DNA from: a virus
Direction: 5' to 3' (one strand)
IMG/VR virus record: IMGVR_UViG_3300015206_000007
Span: 1-35,999 of that record
DNA length: 35,999 bases
Shown piece by piece: positions 17,515-26,698 of the stretch. The position numbers and the translations under genes are program-made. Positions within the stretch are counted from its first letter, which is position 1; each line of letters opens with the position of its first letter. The notes beneath the pieces are model-generated. The model was not told the origin of the DNA and searched no databases. It saw nothing but the letters and a program-made list of their open reading frames with translations.

Positions 17515-19476
17515 TCAATCCATGTAGCCGGAGCGCGACACGCGGCGCGCCAGGCGCGCCGGCGCGGGCGTTGCCGGCGGTGCCGACGTAGTCACGGGCG
17601 CAGGCGCAGGAGTCGGCGCCGGCGCGCGGAGCAGGTCCTCGAGGTCGCCCTGGGGCGCGGCCTTCTGGACTTCGCGCTCGGCCTCGAGCCGGCTCCAGAT
17701 TTCATCGGGCAAACCGCGCACGCCCCATTTGATCGCGGCCGCTTCGGCCTGCAGATGGGTGTCGAGCGCCTCGTTGGCCTGCGACGGGTCCTTGGTCCAG
17801 CGATAGACCACAAAGCCCTGGCGGTTCTTTTCCGGCGTGCGGCGCTCGGCGGTGAACTGCCGGAAATATTCATCGTCGAGGCCGCGGGGAAACGCGACAT
17901 AGCCGCGGGCCAGCGGATCCGGCTTGGCGACGTTGCGGTAGAGCGCCATCTTCAGCACGGAGGTGCCGAAGTTGAAAAAGCGACTCGAATAGCGCAGCAG
18001 CTTGCCGGACTTTTCGTTGCGCTCCTTCTTGACCTTGGCGAGCAACGGTGCCGAGTCCTCGCCCCGGCCGCGCACCATGATCAGCTTCGATGCCGGATGG
18101 CGTTTGGCGAAGCTCCAGACTTCCTCGGTCCAGGCATTGCCGTCGATCGCGGTCATCTCGATGCCGATGCGGTGGCCGAACGCGTTCAGCCAGGTCTGCT
18201 TCTGCATCGCGTCGAGCCGATCCTGGCAGACCGGCTCCGAGATGTGGCCGGGGATGACGCCGTAATCGACTATGAAACGCCGGCGCTCCCTGCCGAAGGC
18301 AACGGCCTGCCATTCGACGCGGTCGAGCTGGCAGTCGATGCCGAGAAAGATCACCAGTGCGCCTGGCGGCAGCGTGCCGCGCGCATAATCCGATTGGGCC
18401 GCGCGATCGCGCAAGGACTCCCATGGCGGCGACTCGCCCTTGGTGCGATAGGCGCGCCCGGCGGTGTCGTTCGAAAAGGTCTGCTCGGAGGCGGCGTCGC
18501 CCGAGGCCTTCAGCCATTCGCGCGCGATCCGCTCAAAACTCTGCAGGTACGAATAAGCCGACCAGATCCAGAACGAGCGGTGCTGGCGTCTCGCATTCTC
18601 GTTGCTGGCGCGCCATTCCAATCGCGCCAGCATCGCCGGCCGATGGTGTTCCTCAATCTCGCAGCCGCACGCCGTGCAGGTAAAGTGGGCCAGCTCCGGA
18701 TGGTCGAGGTCGAGCCCGGAAAGCATGTTCTCCCATTCCAGCACCTGAAATTCATCGCAGTGTGGACAGGGAACATAGGGCTTTTCCTGCGAGCCCAATT
18801 CATAAGCGCGGGTGATGCGGCAGCCCGGCATCACCAGCGGCGTGCCGAGCTTCAAAATTTTCGCAAACTCATGAGCGCGCGAGCGGCTATCGGCCTGCGC
18901 TTCCGGATCGCCGGCGGAATTCATCTCCCACTTGGAGAGATCGTCCTGCGCCTGGCGACGCATCGAGACCTGCGACAGCGACGACGGCGAATTGGCGCCC
19001 GAGATCAGGATGCAGCCGAGCCCGCTGATGTGTTCCTTCATCAGGATGGCGTCGGAGCCGTCGCGCGACTTCTGCGGAAAGATTTTCGCCAGCGCCACTG
19101 TGCCGCGCAGCATCGGCGCCAGCTTCAGCTTCGACCAGCGCCGCGCGTTGTCCTCGGTCGGATGCGTGTACAAGAAATCGCAAGGGTCGAGCGCCAGCGA
19201 GCCTGCGGTGAAGACGTTGCCGACGACGGTCTTGCCTACCTGGGCGGATCCGAGCACCGTCACCGTGCGGCACGGGTCATCGGGACCGAGCGCGCGGAAC
19301 ACTTCGTCGAAATACGGAAACAGCGTCCGGTTGTAGGGGCCGGGAAACGGCGACTCCCGATCGGTGAAGACGATATTGGCTTCCGCCCAGGCGATGAAAT
19401 CGACCGGCGGCGGCGGCTCGATGGCGAGCGCGGTCGCTTCCATCGCCAGGCGTTCGGCGTTTGAAATCTGGATCAT
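17515..19476 (-). CDS. Large terminase subunit, lambda gpA-like
   Basis: 653 aa. The ATPase has a Walker A-type loop GSAQVGKT at residues 76-83. It is followed by the SGANSPSSLSQV segment, a Gln-rich version of the coupling motif, and DDLSKW (~178-183) in the Walker B region. A zinc ribbon follows with C237-x2-C240 and C267-x2-C270. The nuclease part contains IFLGIDCQLDRVEWQAVAFG and an acidic EMTAIDGNAW. Lambda gpA is 641 aa and works with a Nu1-type small subunit to cut concatemers at cos and pump DNA. The start overlaps the small subunit stop by ATGA. Confidence 0.93.
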   Translation of the reverse strand: MIQISNAERLAMEATALAIEPPPPVDFIAWAEANIVFTDRESPFPGPYNRTLFPYFDEVFRALGPDDPCRTVTVLGSAQVGKTVVGNVFTAGSLALDPCDFLYTHPTEDNARRWSKLKLAPMLRGTVALAKIFPQKSRDGSDAILMKEHISGLGCILISGANSPSSLSQVSMRRQAQDDLSKWEMNSAGDPEAQADSRSRAHEFAKILKLGTPLVMPGCRITRAYELGSQEKPYVPCPHCDEFQVLEWENMLSGLDLDHPELAHFTCTACGCEIEEHHRPAMLARLEWRASNENARRQHRSFWIWSAYSYLQSFERIAREWLKASGDAASEQTFSNDTAGRAYRTKGESPPWESLRDRAAQSDYARGTLPPGALVIFLGIDCQLDRVEWQAVAFGRERRRFIVDYGVIPGHISEPVCQDRLDAMQKQTWLNAFGHRIGIEMTAIDGNAWTEEVWSFAKRHPASKLIMVRGRGEDSAPLLAKVKKERNEKSGKLLRYSSRFFNFGTSVLKMALYRNVAKPDPLARGYVAFPRGLDDEYFRQFTAERRTPEKNRQGFVVYRWTKDPSQANEALDTHLQAEAAAIKWGVRGLPDEIWSRLEAEREVQKAAPQGDLEDLLRAPAPTPAPAPVTTSAPPATPAPARLARRVSRSGYMD

Positions 19477-20342: not shown

Positions 20343-20897
20343 TCAGCCGCCGGGCGCGCGACCACCGAGGATGGCGTTCACCTCGACCATCAGCCGAGCT
20401 GGCAGTTCGGTCGCAACGGTTCGTTCGAAAGCAGCTTTGCTTTCGGCCTTGACCATTTCGGCGGGGAGCGCTGGCCCCCACAGCTTATGGATAGGCCCGT
20501 GCCCTTTGCCCTTACGGATGAACACATGGCCACCGAGGGACGGGGCGATGAAGGCATGCAGGAAAAGGCGTCGTTTCCCCCAAGGAGAAGCACTGACGCC
20601 CTTCCTAGTCTGACGGGCACCGAACTCCTTGAGCGACGTGTAGCCGCCCCGCGCAATGATGCGATAGACCAGCGACGCCGTGCTGGCCGGCATGGTCCGC
20701 AGCGCCTGGCGCACCTTGCTGTATTTGAGCCCGGTCTGCTTCACCAGCACGCGGCTGATCTGGGTGCGCGCCTTGTCGCCTGTATGGTTGATCGCCCGCC
20801 GCAGCGCCGGTTTGATGTTGCGACCGGCTTGCTCGAATTGCACGGCCATTTTCTTGAAGCCGCTTGTGTCGATGCTGACCTTGAGTTCGCTCGCCAT
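20343..20897 (-). CDS. Minor tail protein Z (gpZ-like)
   Basis: 184 aa from ATG 20897, overlapping the upstream stop as TGATG (a GTG one codon earlier is the alternative). Features include KMAVQFEQAGRNIKPALRRA, then GDKARTQISRVLVKQTGLKY. Near the end, GHGPIHKLWGPALPAEMVKAE is a strong signature I know from the prophage minor tail protein Z family. The protein is normally involved in tail completion. Its position upstream of the terminase genes, instead of after the connectors, is unusual but seen in some prophages. Confidence 0.75.
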   Translation of the reverse strand: MASELKVSIDTSGFKKMAVQFEQAGRNIKPALRRAINHTGDKARTQISRVLVKQTGLKYSKVRQALRTMPASTASLVYRIIARGGYTSLKEFGARQTRKGVSASPWGKRRLFLHAFIAPSLGGHVFIRKGKGHGPIHKLWGPALPAEMVKAESKAAFERTVATELPARLMVEVNAILGGRAPGG

Positions 20898-21082
20898 CAC
20901 CGCTTCCGAAATGTTGCGAGCCGCGCCACGGCCGCGCGGGCCAGCGCGCCACTTCGCACGTCCTCGCGAAAGGTGCGGCCGACCAGCGACAGCTCACGGC
21001 CGATATCGCGCACATCACCGGATTTGCCGGCCTCGACCGCGCGTCGCAGCGCAGCCCGTCGCTCGGCACATTTGCAGCCCAT
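20897..21082 (-). CDS. Unknown 61-aa protein
   Basis: 61 aa from ATG 21082; the stop overlaps the gpZ-like start (TGATG), good evidence that it is real. It begins MGCKCAERRAALRRAVEAGK, has two N-terminal cysteines (C-x-C) and is Arg-rich and helical. No family is recognised. It is the first gene after the intrinsic terminator, so it is the first of the late operon. Confidence 0.55.
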   Translation of the reverse strand: MGCKCAERRAALRRAVEAGKSGDVRDIGRELSLVGRTFREDVRSGALARAAVARLATFRKR

Positions 21083-21203
21083 CGACCACTTTCCGGATAG
21101 ATCGGCTCGCCCATGTCGCCATAGGCGAGCCAGTCAAAGGGAGGAAACGCCCAAGGAGGGCAGCGATAATGCCGAGGCAATACCGCACACCCTATGCGAC
21201 ATG

Positions 21204-21237
21204 AAAACGCCGCCCGCAGGGTGAACTGCGGACGGCG
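21204..21237 (-). terminator. Intrinsic terminator upstream of late genes
   Basis: On the - strand the arms CGCCGTCCGCAG and CTGCGGGCGGCG (one mismatch-type pairing, six-base loop) end in a U-run TTTT. It is by far the best terminator-like hairpin in the window and lies in a 307-bp gap (21083-21389) that I see as otherwise non-coding, after the NusG-like and GcrA-like genes and before the head genes. A short open frame upstream of the 61-aa gene in this gap has no coupling or good start and is not called. Confidence 0.8.
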
Positions 21238-21389
21238 TGATGGCTCGGGCGTTGCAAGAGCTTTGGGCACATTGCCGGATTGATGAAGCGCGCTTTTCGC
21301 TTCGAGGGTTTCCGTTCCTGCAATCCGTGATGCGGCTGGTACTAGGAAAGACCCAAGGCGCGCATCAAGGTCTGATTCTCTAGTCGGTT

Positions 21390-21758
21390 TCAACCCTGCC
21401 GCACGATTAAGCTCACAGCTTGTCTGGTCACGCCCACCAGATTACCGATTGCGACAAGCCGGGCACCATCGCGAAATGCATGCTTGATCGCAGCGTTTCT
21501 CTGAACACCCCCGTCCAATTCCTTTCGGAATTTAGCGAGCGCCGCAACCTCTCGCTCATGCCTTTGTTTTTTCGCTTCCGCGACAAGTTGTCTCCTTCGA
21601 AGCTTCCACTTGCTCGGCCGATCCACATAGGTTCGATTGATCCTGTGCATCCGGCCTATTACCGCATTACGCGTTTTGCCAAGCTTCGCAGCGATTTTAC
21701 TCGCACTCGACGTAGGCCATAGCCGGATGAGTTGCCGGTCTTCATGGTCGGTCCACAT
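21390..21758 (-). CDS. GcrA-like DNA-binding protein with a second C-terminal HTH
   Basis: 122 aa from ATG 21758, chosen because it gives MWTDHEDRQLIRLWPTSSAS, overlaps the NusG-like stop (TGATG), and aligns with GcrA. The N-terminal ~45 residues match GcrA (pattern W-T-x-x-x-x-x-x-L-x-x-L-W, then SASKIAAKLGKTRNAVIGRM). GcrA is the sigma70-associated regulator of alphaproteobacterial cell-cycle genes, acting at CcrM-methylated GANTC sites. The middle is basic and helical. The end (DGARLVAIGNLVGVTRQAVS) reads as another HTH, not GcrA's usual C-terminus. It lies just before the late-gene terminator, so a late-promoter regulator is likely. Base composition is below neighbouring genes. Confidence 0.75.
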   Translation of the reverse strand: MWTDHEDRQLIRLWPTSSASKIAAKLGKTRNAVIGRMHRINRTYVDRPSKWKLRRRQLVAEAKKQRHEREVAALAKFRKELDGGVQRNAAIKHAFRDGARLVAIGNLVGVTRQAVSLIVRQG

Positions 21759-22399
21759 CAAGCACACTCCTCTAGCCCGAGAGCTTTCCGTAGTGTCTGA
21801 TTCCGCCCTTCACTGTCTAGTTCTATCAGATCGTCGAAGGCCGACCATGCACGGGTTGTTATGATCTCGTTGCGCAGATCGGCTTCCGTGATCGGCTTTG
21901 GCTTGGCGGCTTTAGCCGATTTGCGGTTTTTCCAGCGACGTTTCTTTTTCGACCTGCGCTGCACAGGCTCGGGATCAGCAGGCGGGATTTCGATGTAAAT
22001 CGGCCGTTCGCGGTTTTCGACCTTTCGCACGATATCGATTTCATCATCGCTCAACGAGCCTACGATCGTGACGACGCCCGGCGTATCCGCCAACCATCGC
22101 CAATGCTGATCGCTAGGCCACATAAACACGAACAGATAGCCCGAAAACATCGGCGCGCGGCGGCCGATCTTGCGACCGCGCTTGACGATGGTTTCGTCGA
22201 CCTCGGGAATGTAGATCCCGAAGCGATGGCCGGCGAGTTCCTCAGCAACGGAAGTTTGTTCGGAGGCGTAAACCTCGACCACGTACCACCTTGGCGATTT
22301 GCCTTTGACGATTTCAGCATTCCGTGGATCACGCGGCTCGTAAGGCCTAGACAGTTCCGCCACGACTTCCGGCGAGAACGCATCCGACAGCGGTTTCAT
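21758..22399 (-). CDS. NusG/RfaH-like NGN-domain protein, candidate antiterminator
   Basis: 213 aa from ATG 22399 with GGAG upstream. Residues ~37-115 form an NGN domain: PRWYVVEVYASEQTSVAEEL, FGIYIPEVDETIVKRGRKIG, and APMFSGYLFVFMWPSDQHWRW, then PGVVTIVG. NGN proteins clamp RNA polymerase and control pausing or termination. The following ~45 residues are very Lys/Arg-rich (QRRSKKKRRWKNRKSAKAAK), and I see no KOW domain, so interaction with NusE/Rho as in cellular NusG is in doubt. The end is acidic-helical. Its place before a strong terminator and the late operon suggests read-through of late transcription. Confidence 0.85.
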   Translation of the reverse strand: MKPLSDAFSPEVVAELSRPYEPRDPRNAEIVKGKSPRWYVVEVYASEQTSVAEELAGHRFGIYIPEVDETIVKRGRKIGRRAPMFSGYLFVFMWPSDQHWRWLADTPGVVTIVGSLSDDEIDIVRKVENRERPIYIEIPPADPEPVQRRSKKKRRWKNRKSAKAAKPKPITEADLRNEIITTRAWSAFDDLIELDSEGRNQTLRKALGLEECA

Positions 22400-22443
22400 T
22401 CAATAGCTCCAACATCTCGATTTCCCCTCGATTTGCTGGCCGT

Positions 22444-22514
22444 CCGGCTTCCGCCGGTCTCACGTCACGAAACGGTTCCTGCCGAGAACCGTTTTTCTTG
22501 TTCCGATCCGGAAC
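22444..22514. promoter_or_regulatory. Inverted-repeat cluster upstream of the NusG-like gene
   Basis: Three short inverted repeats lie upstream of the start at 22399: CCGGC-TTCC-GCCGG (22444-22457), AACGGTTC-7 nt-GAACCGTT (22471-22493), and GTTCCG-ATC-CGGAAC (22500-22514). The second is followed on the + strand by a T-run (22492-22496) and resembles a + strand terminator, although no + strand gene precedes it. On the - strand they could be operator or leader hairpins for NusG expression. I could not assign -35/-10 boxes. Confidence 0.4.
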
Positions 22515-22523
22515 ATGAAACTT

Positions 22524-22780
22524 TGGGAGGGTTGGGAGGATTGATTTTGCTTTTAAAAATCCTCCCGTTCATAAAACCCTTGGTAATCAATGGTTTCTTT
22601 AATTAATGGGAGGGTTGGGAGGATTGGGAGGGTTTTTCATGGTGATGTCCCGTGCGCGCCCGCGCACACGCGCATGTAGGTATAGAAAAACGCTCCCAAT
22701 TGTCCCAACCCTCCCAAACGCAACGAATTCAATGGCTTAATTTTTCGCAATCCTCCCATTCTTGGGAGGGTCGGGAGGAT
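22524..22780. repeat. Array of twelve 9-bp iterons, candidate replication origin
   Basis: The unit is TGGGAGG(G/A)T. Direct copies start at 22524, 22533, 22607, 22616, 22625, 22763 and 22772; inverted ones at 22559, 22690, 22699, 22708 and 22750. They come in tandem runs with an exact 9-base period and are separated by AT-rich stretches (for example 22545-22559, 22595-22606, 22734-22747). Between them is a GC hairpin GTGCGCG-CC-CGCGCAC (22652-22667). The array starts at the stop codon of the P4/D5-type helicase gene. Iterons plus AT-rich DNA next to an SF3 replicase is typical of phage origins such as P4. The trimer at 22607-22633 also fits a G-quadruplex motif. Confidence 0.65.
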
Positions 22781-24948
22781 CAGAACTCGACATCGCCCGC
22801 ATCCTTCGCTCCTTTTTCCTCGTCCCGATCGACCCGGATCGGGTTTCCATTGCTGTCGACGAAGTCGTTCACGCTGCGCGTCAGCTTGACATCGAGGAAC
22901 CACATCACGCTCGATTGCATGCGCATGTAGCCGCGCTCTTCCATCGCCATCGAGAAGCCTTTTTGTTTCCACGCGGTCTCGCCAGATGATTTGCACCAGG
23001 CTTCAAACACCTGGTAGAGCACGCTCGACTGCACCCGATCGCTCGGGCTTTCGACGAGACATGCCGATAGAAAACGCCCGAGCGGATCCGACGCGCTGCG
23101 ATATTGCGCGGTCGCGGCCGTCACGGCGTCCGGCTCGATCAATCCCTTGTCGCACCACAGTCGCAAGCCATCGAGCAGCCGGTTGAGAATGCCGCTCGCC
23201 TCCGCGCGCAGTTTTTCCGCCAGATGAATGTCGCGCTCTTCCTTCGGAATGAAGACGTTGAAGGGCACCAGCCTCAAGCGTCGCCAGATGCCTTCATCGG
23301 CGCCGGAGATCGTGGGGCGGTAATTGCCGGAGATCGTCAATTTGAACTGCGGATAGAACTTGAAGAAATCGCGATTGAGGTGGCGCGCCTGGATCGGCTC
23401 GCCGCCGGTGACGAGCTTGACCATGGCCTCAGCAAGCCGCGAATTCTTTTCCGGCTCCGAGGTGCGCAGCATGCGCACGCCGGGCAGGATCGCGAGATCC
23501 GGCGTGGCTTGTCCCGCGTTGCGCGATTTGCCGTGGTCGAGGAAGGTCTCGATCGGGACCGTCTCGCCGTAGTCGCCGGCGACATAGCTGACCGCGTCGA
23601 CCAGCACCGATTTGCCGTTCGAGCCCTTGCCGTACAGAAACGCCAGCTTTTGTTCGGAGACATCGCCGGTCAGCGACAGGCCGAGCCATTGATGCAGGAA
23701 CACGCGCATCGCGTCCTGTGGCTGTACCCGGGCGATGAACTTGTCATAGTCCGGGCAAACGGCTTTCGGATCGTAATCGACCGGCGAGAGCTTGGTGATT
23801 AGGTCGTCCGGATCATGGCTACGGAAACTGACATAATCCTCGCCGTCGCTTTTCCGCGCAACGACCAGCGTGCCGTTGTTGACGTTGACCTTCATCTTGT
23901 CGGCATCGAGCTTTTCGACGCCGATCGCGAAGTAAGGTGCGCCGCGCTTGGACAATGCGCCGAGCTTGTTGAGGGCTTCCGAGGATCTGCCCCAGCTCGC
24001 GATCTTGTCGGAATAGAGCAGGCCCTTCTTCTCATCAAAGACGAAGTCGCGCGCGCCGGTGTCCGTGCCCTTGATGCCGCTCGATCGAACCTCGTAGGCT
24101 TCGTCCTGGATCGCCCGCACCGTGTCGTGCTCGGCGATCTTGACCAGATCATCGGCGCCGTCGCGGCTCCAGCGCTTGCCGTCCCAGGCGAGCCAGCCCA
24201 GCGCCGGGCACCACAATAGCTTGTCGAGATAGCGCTCGCGAAAGCGCTCAGCGTTGCCGAGGTCGGTGAGCGGGAAAAAAGCGAGCCGCATGTTGCGACG
24301 TCGTTCGGTTTCCACAGCGCGTGGCGGCTTGCGGCGCCCCCCTGCACCCCCCGCAGCGGAAGTTTCCGGCGACAATGCTCCCGTTTGGGAGGGTTGCTCC
24401 GATTCGCCCCCTTCGTCGGGGGGCGCGGGGGCGGCGGCAAAAAAAGACGACGACGGCGAGCCCTCAGAAGAATCCGGAGCATCCACGTCGGCCGAGGGAG
24501 AGGAAGGATCAGTGTCGGCCGCTTCGCGCGGCCGTCTCTCTGAGTGAGGTGCGCGAAGCGTGGCTTGCGCCACGCCGCGCACCTCCGATAAATCGCGAGG
24601 CTGTTTCTTGCCGAGCTTCACGCCGGCTGCGATCGCCGCTTTCACCGCCTTGAGGCCATCGTCGCGGATCAGCTGGCAGGCACTAGCGGCATCCTCGAGG
24701 GCGGCCTTGGCAAAGCCCTCATGCAGCGCGCCGGCGCCGACGAGCTGGCCCAGGCGCTGCGCGGCGCCCGACAGCACCACGCCCCGCCCATCGCCCTCGG
24801 AGCTGCGCACCAGCGCGATCGCGGCGTCGAGCTCGGCCAGGCCGAACTTGCGGATGGCTTCCGCTCGAGCTGCAGGATCCTCGACCACGTCGACGAACAC
24901 CGGCGCGGAATCGACGATCGACAGGATGGCATTTGCGCCGACGGTCAT
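22780..24948 (-). CDS. P4/D5-type primase-helicase (SF3 helicase)
   Basis: 722 aa. Residues ~220-400 are a D5 N-terminal-type domain (LLWCPALGWLAWDGKRWSRD, later SFRSHDPDDLITKLSPVDYD). The SF3 helicase follows, with Walker A GKGSNGKS at 440-447, then VPIETFLDH, DLAILPGVRM, a Walker B-like RTSEPEKNSRL, and KLTISGNYRPTISGADEGIW. The latter is typical of phage/plasmid P4-family initiator helicases. The first ~210 residues (Ala-rich, then an acidic/Ser/Pro linker) have no recognised domain. The CHC2/Toprim primase is a separate gene at 25475-26698. It would unwind at the iteron array just downstream. ATG at 24948 has a weak ribosome site. Confidence 0.92.
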   Translation of the reverse strand: MTVGANAILSIVDSAPVFVDVVEDPAARAEAIRKFGLAELDAAIALVRSSEGDGRGVVLSGAAQRLGQLVGAGALHEGFAKAALEDAASACQLIRDDGLKAVKAAIAAGVKLGKKQPRDLSEVRGVAQATLRAPHSERRPREAADTDPSSPSADVDAPDSSEGSPSSSFFAAAPAPPDEGGESEQPSQTGALSPETSAAGGAGGRRKPPRAVETERRRNMRLAFFPLTDLGNAERFRERYLDKLLWCPALGWLAWDGKRWSRDGADDLVKIAEHDTVRAIQDEAYEVRSSGIKGTDTGARDFVFDEKKGLLYSDKIASWGRSSEALNKLGALSKRGAPYFAIGVEKLDADKMKVNVNNGTLVVARKSDGEDYVSFRSHDPDDLITKLSPVDYDPKAVCPDYDKFIARVQPQDAMRVFLHQWLGLSLTGDVSEQKLAFLYGKGSNGKSVLVDAVSYVAGDYGETVPIETFLDHGKSRNAGQATPDLAILPGVRMLRTSEPEKNSRLAEAMVKLVTGGEPIQARHLNRDFFKFYPQFKLTISGNYRPTISGADEGIWRRLRLVPFNVFIPKEERDIHLAEKLRAEASGILNRLLDGLRLWCDKGLIEPDAVTAATAQYRSASDPLGRFLSACLVESPSDRVQSSVLYQVFEAWCKSSGETAWKQKGFSMAMEERGYMRMQSSVMWFLDVKLTRSVNDFVDSNGNPIRVDRDEEKGAKDAGDVEF

Positions 24949-25474: not shown

Positions 25475-26698
25475 TCATGGCGCCGCCCCCTCCTCGCGCA
25501 GCACGTCATTGAAATCTCGCCCCGCCGGCGCGAACGCGATCCGGATTCGCCGGCCCTCTTTCGCGTAGCGCCGCGCCGCGCGCTCCATCGCGCACTCGGT
25601 CAATAGCTGTTCGCTGTCGCCGTCGCCGAGCAGGATCAGCTCTTCGACGCTGTCGGGAATCGACAGGCCTTGATCGTCCGGATCGGGATAGCGATCGGGC
25701 ACCGTCATCGCGCGGCCGTTCGGCCGCTTCAGGGTCGGATGGTTGATGGTTTTGGTGGCGCGGCCGGCGAGATTGCCGAGGTCGCCGGCGGCCCAGAACG
25801 CCATGTCGGAGATAGGCCGGCCCGCCGCCTGGTGCGCGGTCCATACCGCGAGCACCGTCTCGATGCCCTCGCCGATCACCAGGCGCCGCGGCGTCGGCAA
25901 TTTTACGATCGCGATATGCGCTCCAGTTTTCGATCCGCGCATCTTCTTCGCGTTCAAGATCTCGCCGGTCGCGGGGTCCGTCAGCTCGATCTTGCGGAAC
26001 AGCCGCAATGTCTGCTGCTTGGCCCCGACGAATTCAAGCCGCGCGCCATAATCTTCCAGCCATGTCATGTGCAAACCGCCAAACGTCCCGTCGGCGCGAA
26101 TGAAGGCGGCCAGCATTGCCGGCCCCGAATGGATCTTGATCGGCGATTTGCGGCCGCGCTCGTCGACGCTTTCGCCATGGAAATACGGCGCGCTCGGCAG
26201 ATAGCGGATCCCCGGGCACCGCGCCGGCAGCTGCAACCCGCGGCCGGCGAGATACGCCTCGACCGGCGTGCCGGCGAGATCCTTCACCGCGGCCTCCCAG
26301 GTGTGCCAAAGCCGCTTGCGCTCGGCCTCGCGGTACCCCACAGCGGTTTTCTCGCGCGCCAGGCGCTTGCGCTCGCGTTCATCGAACAGCTTCCCTGCGG
26401 CCTCCGGATCGGGCGTAGCGCGGCCGCCGAGCCGCTCGATCGCGCCTAAGAAATCGCAACCGTCGACCAGCTGCACCAGGCGAATGACGTCGCCGCCATC
26501 AGGGCAGACCGCACATACCCAGCTTTCGCCATTGTCGAGGATCTCAAAGCGCTGCGAGGTTGCGCGGCCGCCGCAGATCGGGCATGGGCCGACCAGGCAC
26601 CCGCCGGCGCGGCGCAGCTTGACGTAGCCGCCGGCAACGTCAGCCAGTGAATTGCGCGCCTTGATGTCGTCGAGATCCTGCGGGGTGAAGCGGCTCAA
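25475..26698 (-). CDS. CHC2 zinc-finger / Toprim primase
   Basis: 407 aa. The start is TTG at 26698, which overlaps the previous stop as TTGA and is needed to give SRFTPQDLDDIKARNSLADV. A DnaG-type zinc finger has C39-x2-C42 (GPCPICGG) and C62-x2-C65 (VCAVCPDGGD). Residues ~140-215 contain VEAYLAGRGLQLP, then SGPAMLAAFI and FGGLHMTWL, typical of the Toprim-containing primases of phages and plasmids. The Toprim core follows with GEGIE at 276-280 and LGDGDS at 357-362. It would make RNA primers alongside the SF3 helicase encoded next in the replication block. Confidence 0.9.
   Translation of the reverse strand: MSRFTPQDLDDIKARNSLADVAGGYVKLRRAGGCLVGPCPICGGRATSQRFEILDNGESWVCAVCPDGGDVIRLVQLVDGCDFLGAIERLGGRATPDPEAAGKLFDERERKRLAREKTAVGYREAERKRLWHTWEAAVKDLAGTPVEAYLAGRGLQLPARCPGIRYLPSAPYFHGESVDERGRKSPIKIHSGPAMLAAFIRADGTFGGLHMTWLEDYGARLEFVGAKQQTLRLFRKIELTDPATGEILNAKKMRGSKTGAHIAIVKLPTPRRLVIGEGIETVLAVWTAHQAAGRPISDMAFWAAGDLGNLAGRATKTINHPTLKRPNGRAMTVPDRYPDPDDQGLSIPDSVEELILLGDGDSEQLLTECAMERAARRYAKEGRRIRIAFAPAGRDFNDVLREEGAAP

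Follow-up and report, generated by a model that had tools for sequence, protein, structure and literature searches.

The late region of phage lambda is laid out in the order Q, PR', short RNA, tR' and late genes. NusG paralogs of the LoaP type bind RNA in a sequence-specific manner and antagonise NusA. To our knowledge, little has been learned of how late genes are turned on in temperate phages that infect rhizobia and related bacteria. LoaP of Bacillus velezensis is a NusG paralog whose gene lies close to its target; it overcomes an intrinsic terminator only if a hairpin in the leader precedes it (PMC12691694). In Stx phages, the short RNA of the late unit is a working Hfq sRNA, StxS (PMC7873438). 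Antiterminators are reported to be general in phiLM21-like prophages (PMC12429752), and NusG-annotated antiterminators placed before the terminase are already known from Sinorhizobium prophages. In the literature searched, no paper on a phage-encoded NusG and no report of alphaR8/MmgR in phage late regions was found.

In the window, by which we mean the whole stretch of 35,999 nucleotides analysed here, the minus strand carries an NGN (NusG-like) gene, a GcrA-like ORF, a leader element, the terminator T1, an alphaR8 sRNA and the virion genes, in this order. The features are the following:

21758..22399, minus strand: KOW-less NusG-family (NGN) gene, 213 amino acids (Pfam, AlphaFold, alignments)
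21390..21758, minus strand: GcrA-like (half) gene, 122 amino acids, N-terminal GcrA/Myb-type HTH only (Pfam GcrA, 1e-8)
21342..21377, minus strand: displaced, noncoding relic (NQTLMRALGLS*) of the 3' end of the NGN gene, behind the GcrA-like stop
21260..21324, minus strand: putative nut/dfn-like leader element, hairpin plus linear TGTGCCCAAA (covariation, covariance model)
21207..21238, minus strand: intrinsic terminator T1
21183..21194, minus strand: TAGGGTGTGCGG motif, signature of NusG-linked alphaR8 copies, directly behind T1
21092..21186, minus strand: alphaR8-family sRNA (RF00519, suhB/MmgR; MmgR/SisA-type; Rfam match)
20343..20900, minus strand: tail completion/neck protein (Minor_tail_Z), the first clear late gene
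17515..19476, minus strand: terminase large subunit, GpA type

The virion genes leftward of T1 span about 21 kb, as had been noted before, and encode neck and tail completion proteins, the small and large (GpA) terminase subunits, portal, protease, tail sheath and baseplate hub.

As in the LoaP system, a NusG paralog gene lies beside its presumed target, and a putative leader hairpin followed by an intrinsic terminator precedes a long operon. However, the LoaP hairpin is of the UNCG type, while the one found here is GAAGNN-NNCTTC with loops of 4–7 nt, accompanied by a linear TGTGYCCAAA; the window NGN protein lacks KOW and has a basic arm, and the putative target is a phage late operon. With the lambda Q/PR'/6S RNA/tR' region the locus shares the placement of an antiterminator gene, here a putative one, immediately before a short terminated RNA and the late operon, but with a NusG fold, an alphaR8-family sRNA and a putative RNA leader, where lambda has a DNA Q-binding site; no Q-family protein was found, the window protein matching NusG families only. 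The likeness to lambda N and nut (an arm rich in basic residues, and a hairpin with a linear element in the nascent RNA) is by analogy only: N is small, disordered and uses the host NusG, while here the phage protein is itself NusG-like. GafY and GafZ of the Caulobacter gene transfer agent (GTA) also control an alphaproteobacterial phage-like late cluster by antitermination, with a separate activator, although GafZ is no relative of NusG and has its binding site in the promoter DNA that separates -35 from -10. Sinorhizobium phage phi3LM21 encodes a NusG-type 'transcription antitermination protein' at the end of its early region, before the terminase, but this NusG is 23% identical to the window protein and no alphaR8 is found there at the Rfam cut-off. 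The window sRNA has the core hairpins, the TTTCCTCCCT 10-mer, the terminator and the host-like 5' hairpin of the alphaR8 family (RF00519; MmgR, SisA-D); unlike host copies, the NusG-linked copies are without the host promoter and are placed between T1 and the terminase genes.

We judge the chances to be slightly better than even that the NGN protein is a late antiterminator, which would read through T1 and the sRNA terminator T2 with LoaP-like parts in a Q/6S-like layout. Control by NGN read-through ahead of the late operon had been proposed in the earlier note together with a role for the GcrA-like protein; the first part has strong comparative support, while the GcrA half is unsupported.

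The NGN protein matches the Pfam NusG family over residues 37–121 (1.9e-16), in keeping with its earlier description as a KOW-less NGN protein. No KOW was found by the Pfam search, which does detect this domain in the phage NusGs of loci L021 and L179. In its AlphaFold model, residues 31–120 form an NGN fold with high confidence (pLDDT about 90), and its C terminus, where a housekeeping NusG carries KOW, is made up of low-confidence helices. Foldseek matched the model to NusG/RfaH structures with E down to 7e-8, and a profile of the window NGN relatives matches NusG and RfaH chains in the PDB. Behind the NGN domain, a Lys/Arg-rich arm (residues about 149–168, RSKKKRRWKNRKSAKAAKPK) is found, as well as a C-terminal helical module, WSAFDD..LDSEGRNQTL..ALGL. 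The number of Lys/Arg per 20-residue stretch behind the domain is 7–13 in all KOW-less NGNs, against 5–8 in the KOW-type proteins. Full-length NGN proteins 67–74% identical to that of the window are encoded by eight IMG/VR contigs and one Hyphomicrobiales genome, and a degenerate prophage gene with an internal stop, apparently a decaying window-type copy, is present in Bradyrhizobium glycinis (L138 5001–5224/L154). Three classes of NusG occur upstream of alphaR8: the window type, shorter KOW-less proteins and KOW-bearing proteins.

The association of NusG genes with alphaR8 was assessed by scanning IMG/VR for a 14-base sRNA motif, a search blind to NusG, which gave 120 contigs (1.07 Mb, 5892 ORFs), 22 extended alphaR8 cores being present among them. 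NGN-profile matches were obtained for 13 of the 5892 ORFs, and 12 of these 13 end 107–468 nt upstream of a same-strand alphaR8, against about 0.07 such placements expected by chance (arithmetic from the sample counts); 12 of the 22 alphaR8 copies adjoin a NusG ORF. The L032 match in this set is the L001 contig. When bacterial genomes were searched family-wide by NGN only, the window-type loci L148–L152 and L155 all had a downstream alphaR8 at the Rfam cut-off; in L153 the copy downstream of the NGN gene is degenerate. The order NusG, leader, terminator, sRNA and terminase recurs in about 25 loci with different terminases; as in all our counts, these loci are related and their number overstates independence. 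Across loci, the next large ORF after alphaR8 encodes the terminase large subunit, of at least four Pfam classes in all (TerL_ATPase/TerL_nuclease, Terminase_6 and Terminase_3, and GpA in the window). KOW-bearing NusG genes are also accompanied by T1-TAGGNTGTGCGG, alphaR8 and varied terminases. Because many related phages have the same set of NusG gene, hairpin, T1 and sRNA, this set has the look of a late-gene switch that is widespread and undescribed. A cos site at the alphaR8 element was considered and rejected: the element is an Rfam sRNA, and the several Pfam classes of the adjoining terminases disfavour this explanation.

The leader hairpin, GAAGCG-AAAAGCG-CGCTTC in the window (21285–21303), follows the consensus GAAGNN-(4-7)-NNCTTC and then TGTGYCCAAA. 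Both parts are found at 15 KOW-less loci and at none of the 10 KOW-type loci; the linear part has diverged in L094 and L096, and the hairpin is missing from three divergent KOW-less loci (L011, L153 and L155). In the alignment, 89.1% of cells are paired (78.3% when shuffled) and the covariation score is 0.307 (0.125 when shuffled). None of 500 shuffles matched the pairing or the covariation, and the signal was lost when the partner strand was slid. A model built from seven close relatives recovers the held-out window leader, whose outer stem has a mismatch, at the same place (E 5e-11), and likewise recovers L137, L001, L151 and L150 in place, while a covariance model of all 15 leaders gave no further match above noise in 701 kb. 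The hairpin tracks with the arm-bearing NGN class, and from its composition the arm is predicted to bind RNA, presumably the hairpin. Since the KOW-type NusGs and L011, L153 and L155 are without the hairpin, recruitment would not be uniform across loci. A weak promoter-like sequence, TTGATG-16-CCTAGTAC, lies in the relic of the NGN 3' end and ends at 21339; it could be a putative promoter serving the leader. It is absent from the other NusG classes, and the relatives vary less at synonymous sites in the 3' end of their NGN genes.

According to the antitermination reading, for which LoaP is the nearest precedent that has been tested, NGN would accumulate late in the early phase, its arm would bind the leader hairpin in the nascent RNA and its NGN domain would sit on the RNA polymerase clamp. 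The polymerase modified in this way would read on across T1 and T2 and enter the virion operon of 21 kb. Without NGN, early transcription would end at T1, and the alphaR8 region would give a short RNA only. The Caulobacter alphaR8 sRNAs SisA-D are Hfq-dependent repressors of many mRNAs, acting via their anti-Shine-Dalgarno 10-mer (PMC12559287); for this reason the phage sRNA, in which the 10-mer is intact, may itself be trans-acting, with mRNAs of the host or the phage as targets.

More tentatively, and with a probability that we place well below even, a class of late switches widespread among alphaproteobacterial phages would use NusG paralogs, rather than Q or N, to antiterminate through a captured host gene of the alphaR8 family, with the sRNA as the short RNA made by default from the late region and directed in trans at host mRNAs, and the KOW-less NusG joining the roles of N and NusG. 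If this is true, a KOW-less NusG brings its own nut-like RNA recognition (basic arm and hairpin), an RNA-guided NusG paralog is added to phage antitermination, and a host regulatory sRNA family has been rebuilt into a phage control region, comparable to StxS in Stx phages. As a module with defined parts is found beside different terminases, the question of the late switch can be tested directly with reporters.

Terminator T1 consists of 13 pairs, of which 10 are G-C, followed by a U-rich tail, with -26.7 kcal/mol for the folded stretch. It had been called the only strong terminator; among minus-strand sites it does fit the terminator consensus best, but a second 13-bp stem is present at about 21104–21131, the terminator position of the alphaR8 sRNA, which the earlier note does not mention. 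The total of terminator-like matches in the window is no greater than in shuffles. Another 13-pair inverted repeat, with a poor T tail, is located on the other strand, inside the primase gene (25713–25745, plus strand).

With up to two mismatches, TAGGNTGTGCGG is found in 23 of the 25 NusG-linked sRNA copies and in none of the 38 unlinked viral and host copies (Fisher 3e-15, a value that ignores the relatedness of the sequences). Boxes of the CATATT type at -10 show the opposite distribution, in 23 unlinked copies and no linked one, and host copies of alphaR8 have a CTTGC/CATATT promoter. As T1-TAGGNT marks the linked copies and CATATT boxes the unlinked ones, the phage copies thus keep the transcript body, with the host -35/-10 promoter swapped for T1-TAGGNT. 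When all loci were searched for TAGGNT following a terminator, hardly any sites but the known ones came up; control hexamers also occur behind hairpins at some rate, so that a hexamer plus terminator was not taken as evidence by itself. Tandem units of terminator and YNTAGG are present upstream of the alphaR8 sRNA in L003, L137, L153, L155 and L178, as if the T1-TAGG unit duplicated as a module.

The motif could alternatively be the -10-like element (TAGGNT) of a late promoter behind T1. T1 would then merely insulate the early operon, alphaR8 would be a constitutively terminated leader, and NusG would get the polymerase past T2. Such an arrangement covers KOW-type and KOW-less NusGs alike and agrees with the near-universal presence of TAGGNTGTGCGG in linked copies of every NusG class and its absence from unlinked ones; the gene order fits that from Q through PR', short RNA and tR' to the late genes, and StxS derives from exactly such a PR'-tR' unit (PMC7873438). 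We nevertheless regard it as doubtful, if possible. A consensus sigma70 promoter at TAGGNT was rejected, no -35 being present at a plausible distance; the hairpin that precedes T1 in KOW-less loci only is left unexplained, and in L003, L153 and L178 tandem T1 and TAGG units lie away from the sRNA.

An unlikely alternative is that NGN acts like RfaH, countering Rho and polarity and aiding coupling along the virion operon, with no effect on intrinsic terminators, and that T1 is simply the end of the early operon. RfaH is a close fold match and is inefficient at intrinsic terminators (review PMC7819879), and the operon downstream is long; against this, the KOW domain, through which RfaH contacts the ribosome, is missing from NGN, a leader hairpin lies upstream of T1, and no ops-like element is specific to the NusG-linked copies. 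The candidate ops site, GCGGTAGCG, resembles the core of GGCGGTAGCGTG, but it also occurs in host sRNA copies without NusG, in which it forms one side, the first, of the covarying 5' hairpin.

The Rfam match of the window sRNA (21092–21168) covers the full length of the family model, 1–77, at 38.0 bits (E 8.9e-7), short of the gathering cut-off of 41, and a run of Rfam on the whole window at the gathering threshold gave no match; the alphaR8 copies of syntenic relatives score 42–73 bits, above the cut-off. The 5' hairpin is located at 21163–21186, and its arms GCGGTAGC...GCTATCGC, common to linked and host copies, covary. The TTTCCTCCCT 10-mer is exact at 21138–21147, so that the UUUCCUCCCU 10-mer characteristic of RF00519, unpaired in the family model, is present. 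T2, at the terminator position (21104–21131), has a strong stem of 13 bp and a degenerate U tract (GATCTATCC), and both in T2 and in sRNA score the window ranks last within its group. In L137 (5909–6017), a long insertion enlarges the loop of the alphaR8 5' hairpin, and a lengthened complementary stem is preserved.

Viral contigs also carry alphaR8 with no NusG nearby (L019:9686, L084:2329, L087, L030, L118 and L119). The copies of L019 and L084 lie beside apparent structural genes, so the sRNA has been captured by phages in other settings too. The alphaR8 core is found as well in two 'Microcystis phage' records, PP395640.1 (42325–42360) and OM681334.1 (26415–26454; L180 and L181); as alphaR8 is an alphaproteobacterial sRNA, these phages may in fact infect an alphaproteobacterium that lives in company with Microcystis. 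About half of the viral alphaR8 copies have no NusG nearby, and sRNAs of the family repress many Caulobacter mRNAs (PMC12559287), which would suit a set of independent passengers at the early/late boundary, the sRNA being a regulator taken from the host, with outer-membrane receptors as one conceivable target, and the leader an autoregulatory element of NGN. This we consider quite improbable, given the placement of 12 of 13 NusG ORFs directly upstream of alphaR8 and the specific promoter replacement that the linked copies have in common.

The GcrA-like ORF starts with the ATG at 21758, and the TGATG overlap with the NGN stop is present as described. An N-terminal DNA-binding HTH like that of GcrA is found, but the Pfam match covers positions 2–64 of the 155 in the profile, so that the name given to this protein holds for its DNA-binding half only. 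The GcrA structures 5yiu and 7ye1 match over residues 2–49 only, and in a single-sequence fold model the HTH alone is confident. For the C-terminal sigma70-interacting domain, there is no match past profile position 64 or residue 49, while the viral GcrA homologues L129 and L131 still have a C-terminal region with Cys/His, missing from the window protein.

The two genes had been taken for a pair, yet the GcrA-like gene is absent from this place in all 23 other loci, no GcrA-like gene follows NGN in the eight IMG/VR contigs and the Hyphomicrobiales genome with 67–74% identical NGN proteins, and the window alone of 24 NusG-alphaR8 loci has an ORF of at least 90 amino acids in the gap between the NusG gene and the late region. 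The relic behind the GcrA-like stop (AATCAGACCTTGATGCGCGCCTTGGGTCTTTCCTAG, 36 nt) is identical to the gene end of L007 at 35 of 36 positions and to those of six others at 34 of 36, and the noncoding block of the relatives resumes after it. As this copy of the NGN end sits behind the GcrA-like stop, the GcrA-like gene is most simply explained as a local, lineage-specific insertion at the NGN 3' end by recombination; judged by this comparison, it is a local addition outside the conserved core and unsupported as a partner of NGN. GANTC occurs 87 times in the window, against 122 expected from base composition, with two sites within 20500–23000 and no clustering at the late region in a scan of the window. 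Viral contigs contain only remote relatives of GcrA, with 38% identity or short matches, and none has an NGN in its locus. These results lend no support to the action with sigma70 at methylated promoters that had been supposed.

A two-part switch, in which NGN antiterminates and the GcrA-like protein activates a late promoter with sigma70 at methylated GANTC, is very improbable: the genes overlap, a GcrA-type HTH is present and activator-antiterminator pairs occur in alphaproteobacterial GTAs, but the second gene is an insertion missing elsewhere, it lacks the sigma-binding half kept in L129 and L131, and GANTC is under-represented. Nor would such a switch be new in kind for alphaproteobacteria, GafY/GafZ being known there (PMC11150451). 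In Bradyrhizobium phage ppBdUSDA122-1 (L179:5185–5691), a SANT/Myb-type HTH gene with a weak Myb match only is located in the early region, near the NusG gene and not adjacent to it. This prophage and ppBeUSDA76-1 each have a NusG gene together with the alphaR8 core.

At 22522–22782 of the window, in the interval that separates the D5-type primase-helicase gene from the NGN gene, there are four copies of a 20-nt TGGGAGGGTTGGGAGGATTG repeat and long inverted repeats of the CCTCCCAA type. This cluster could be a replication origin. Its CCTCCC/GGGAGG letters resemble or complement the 10-mer of the sRNA.
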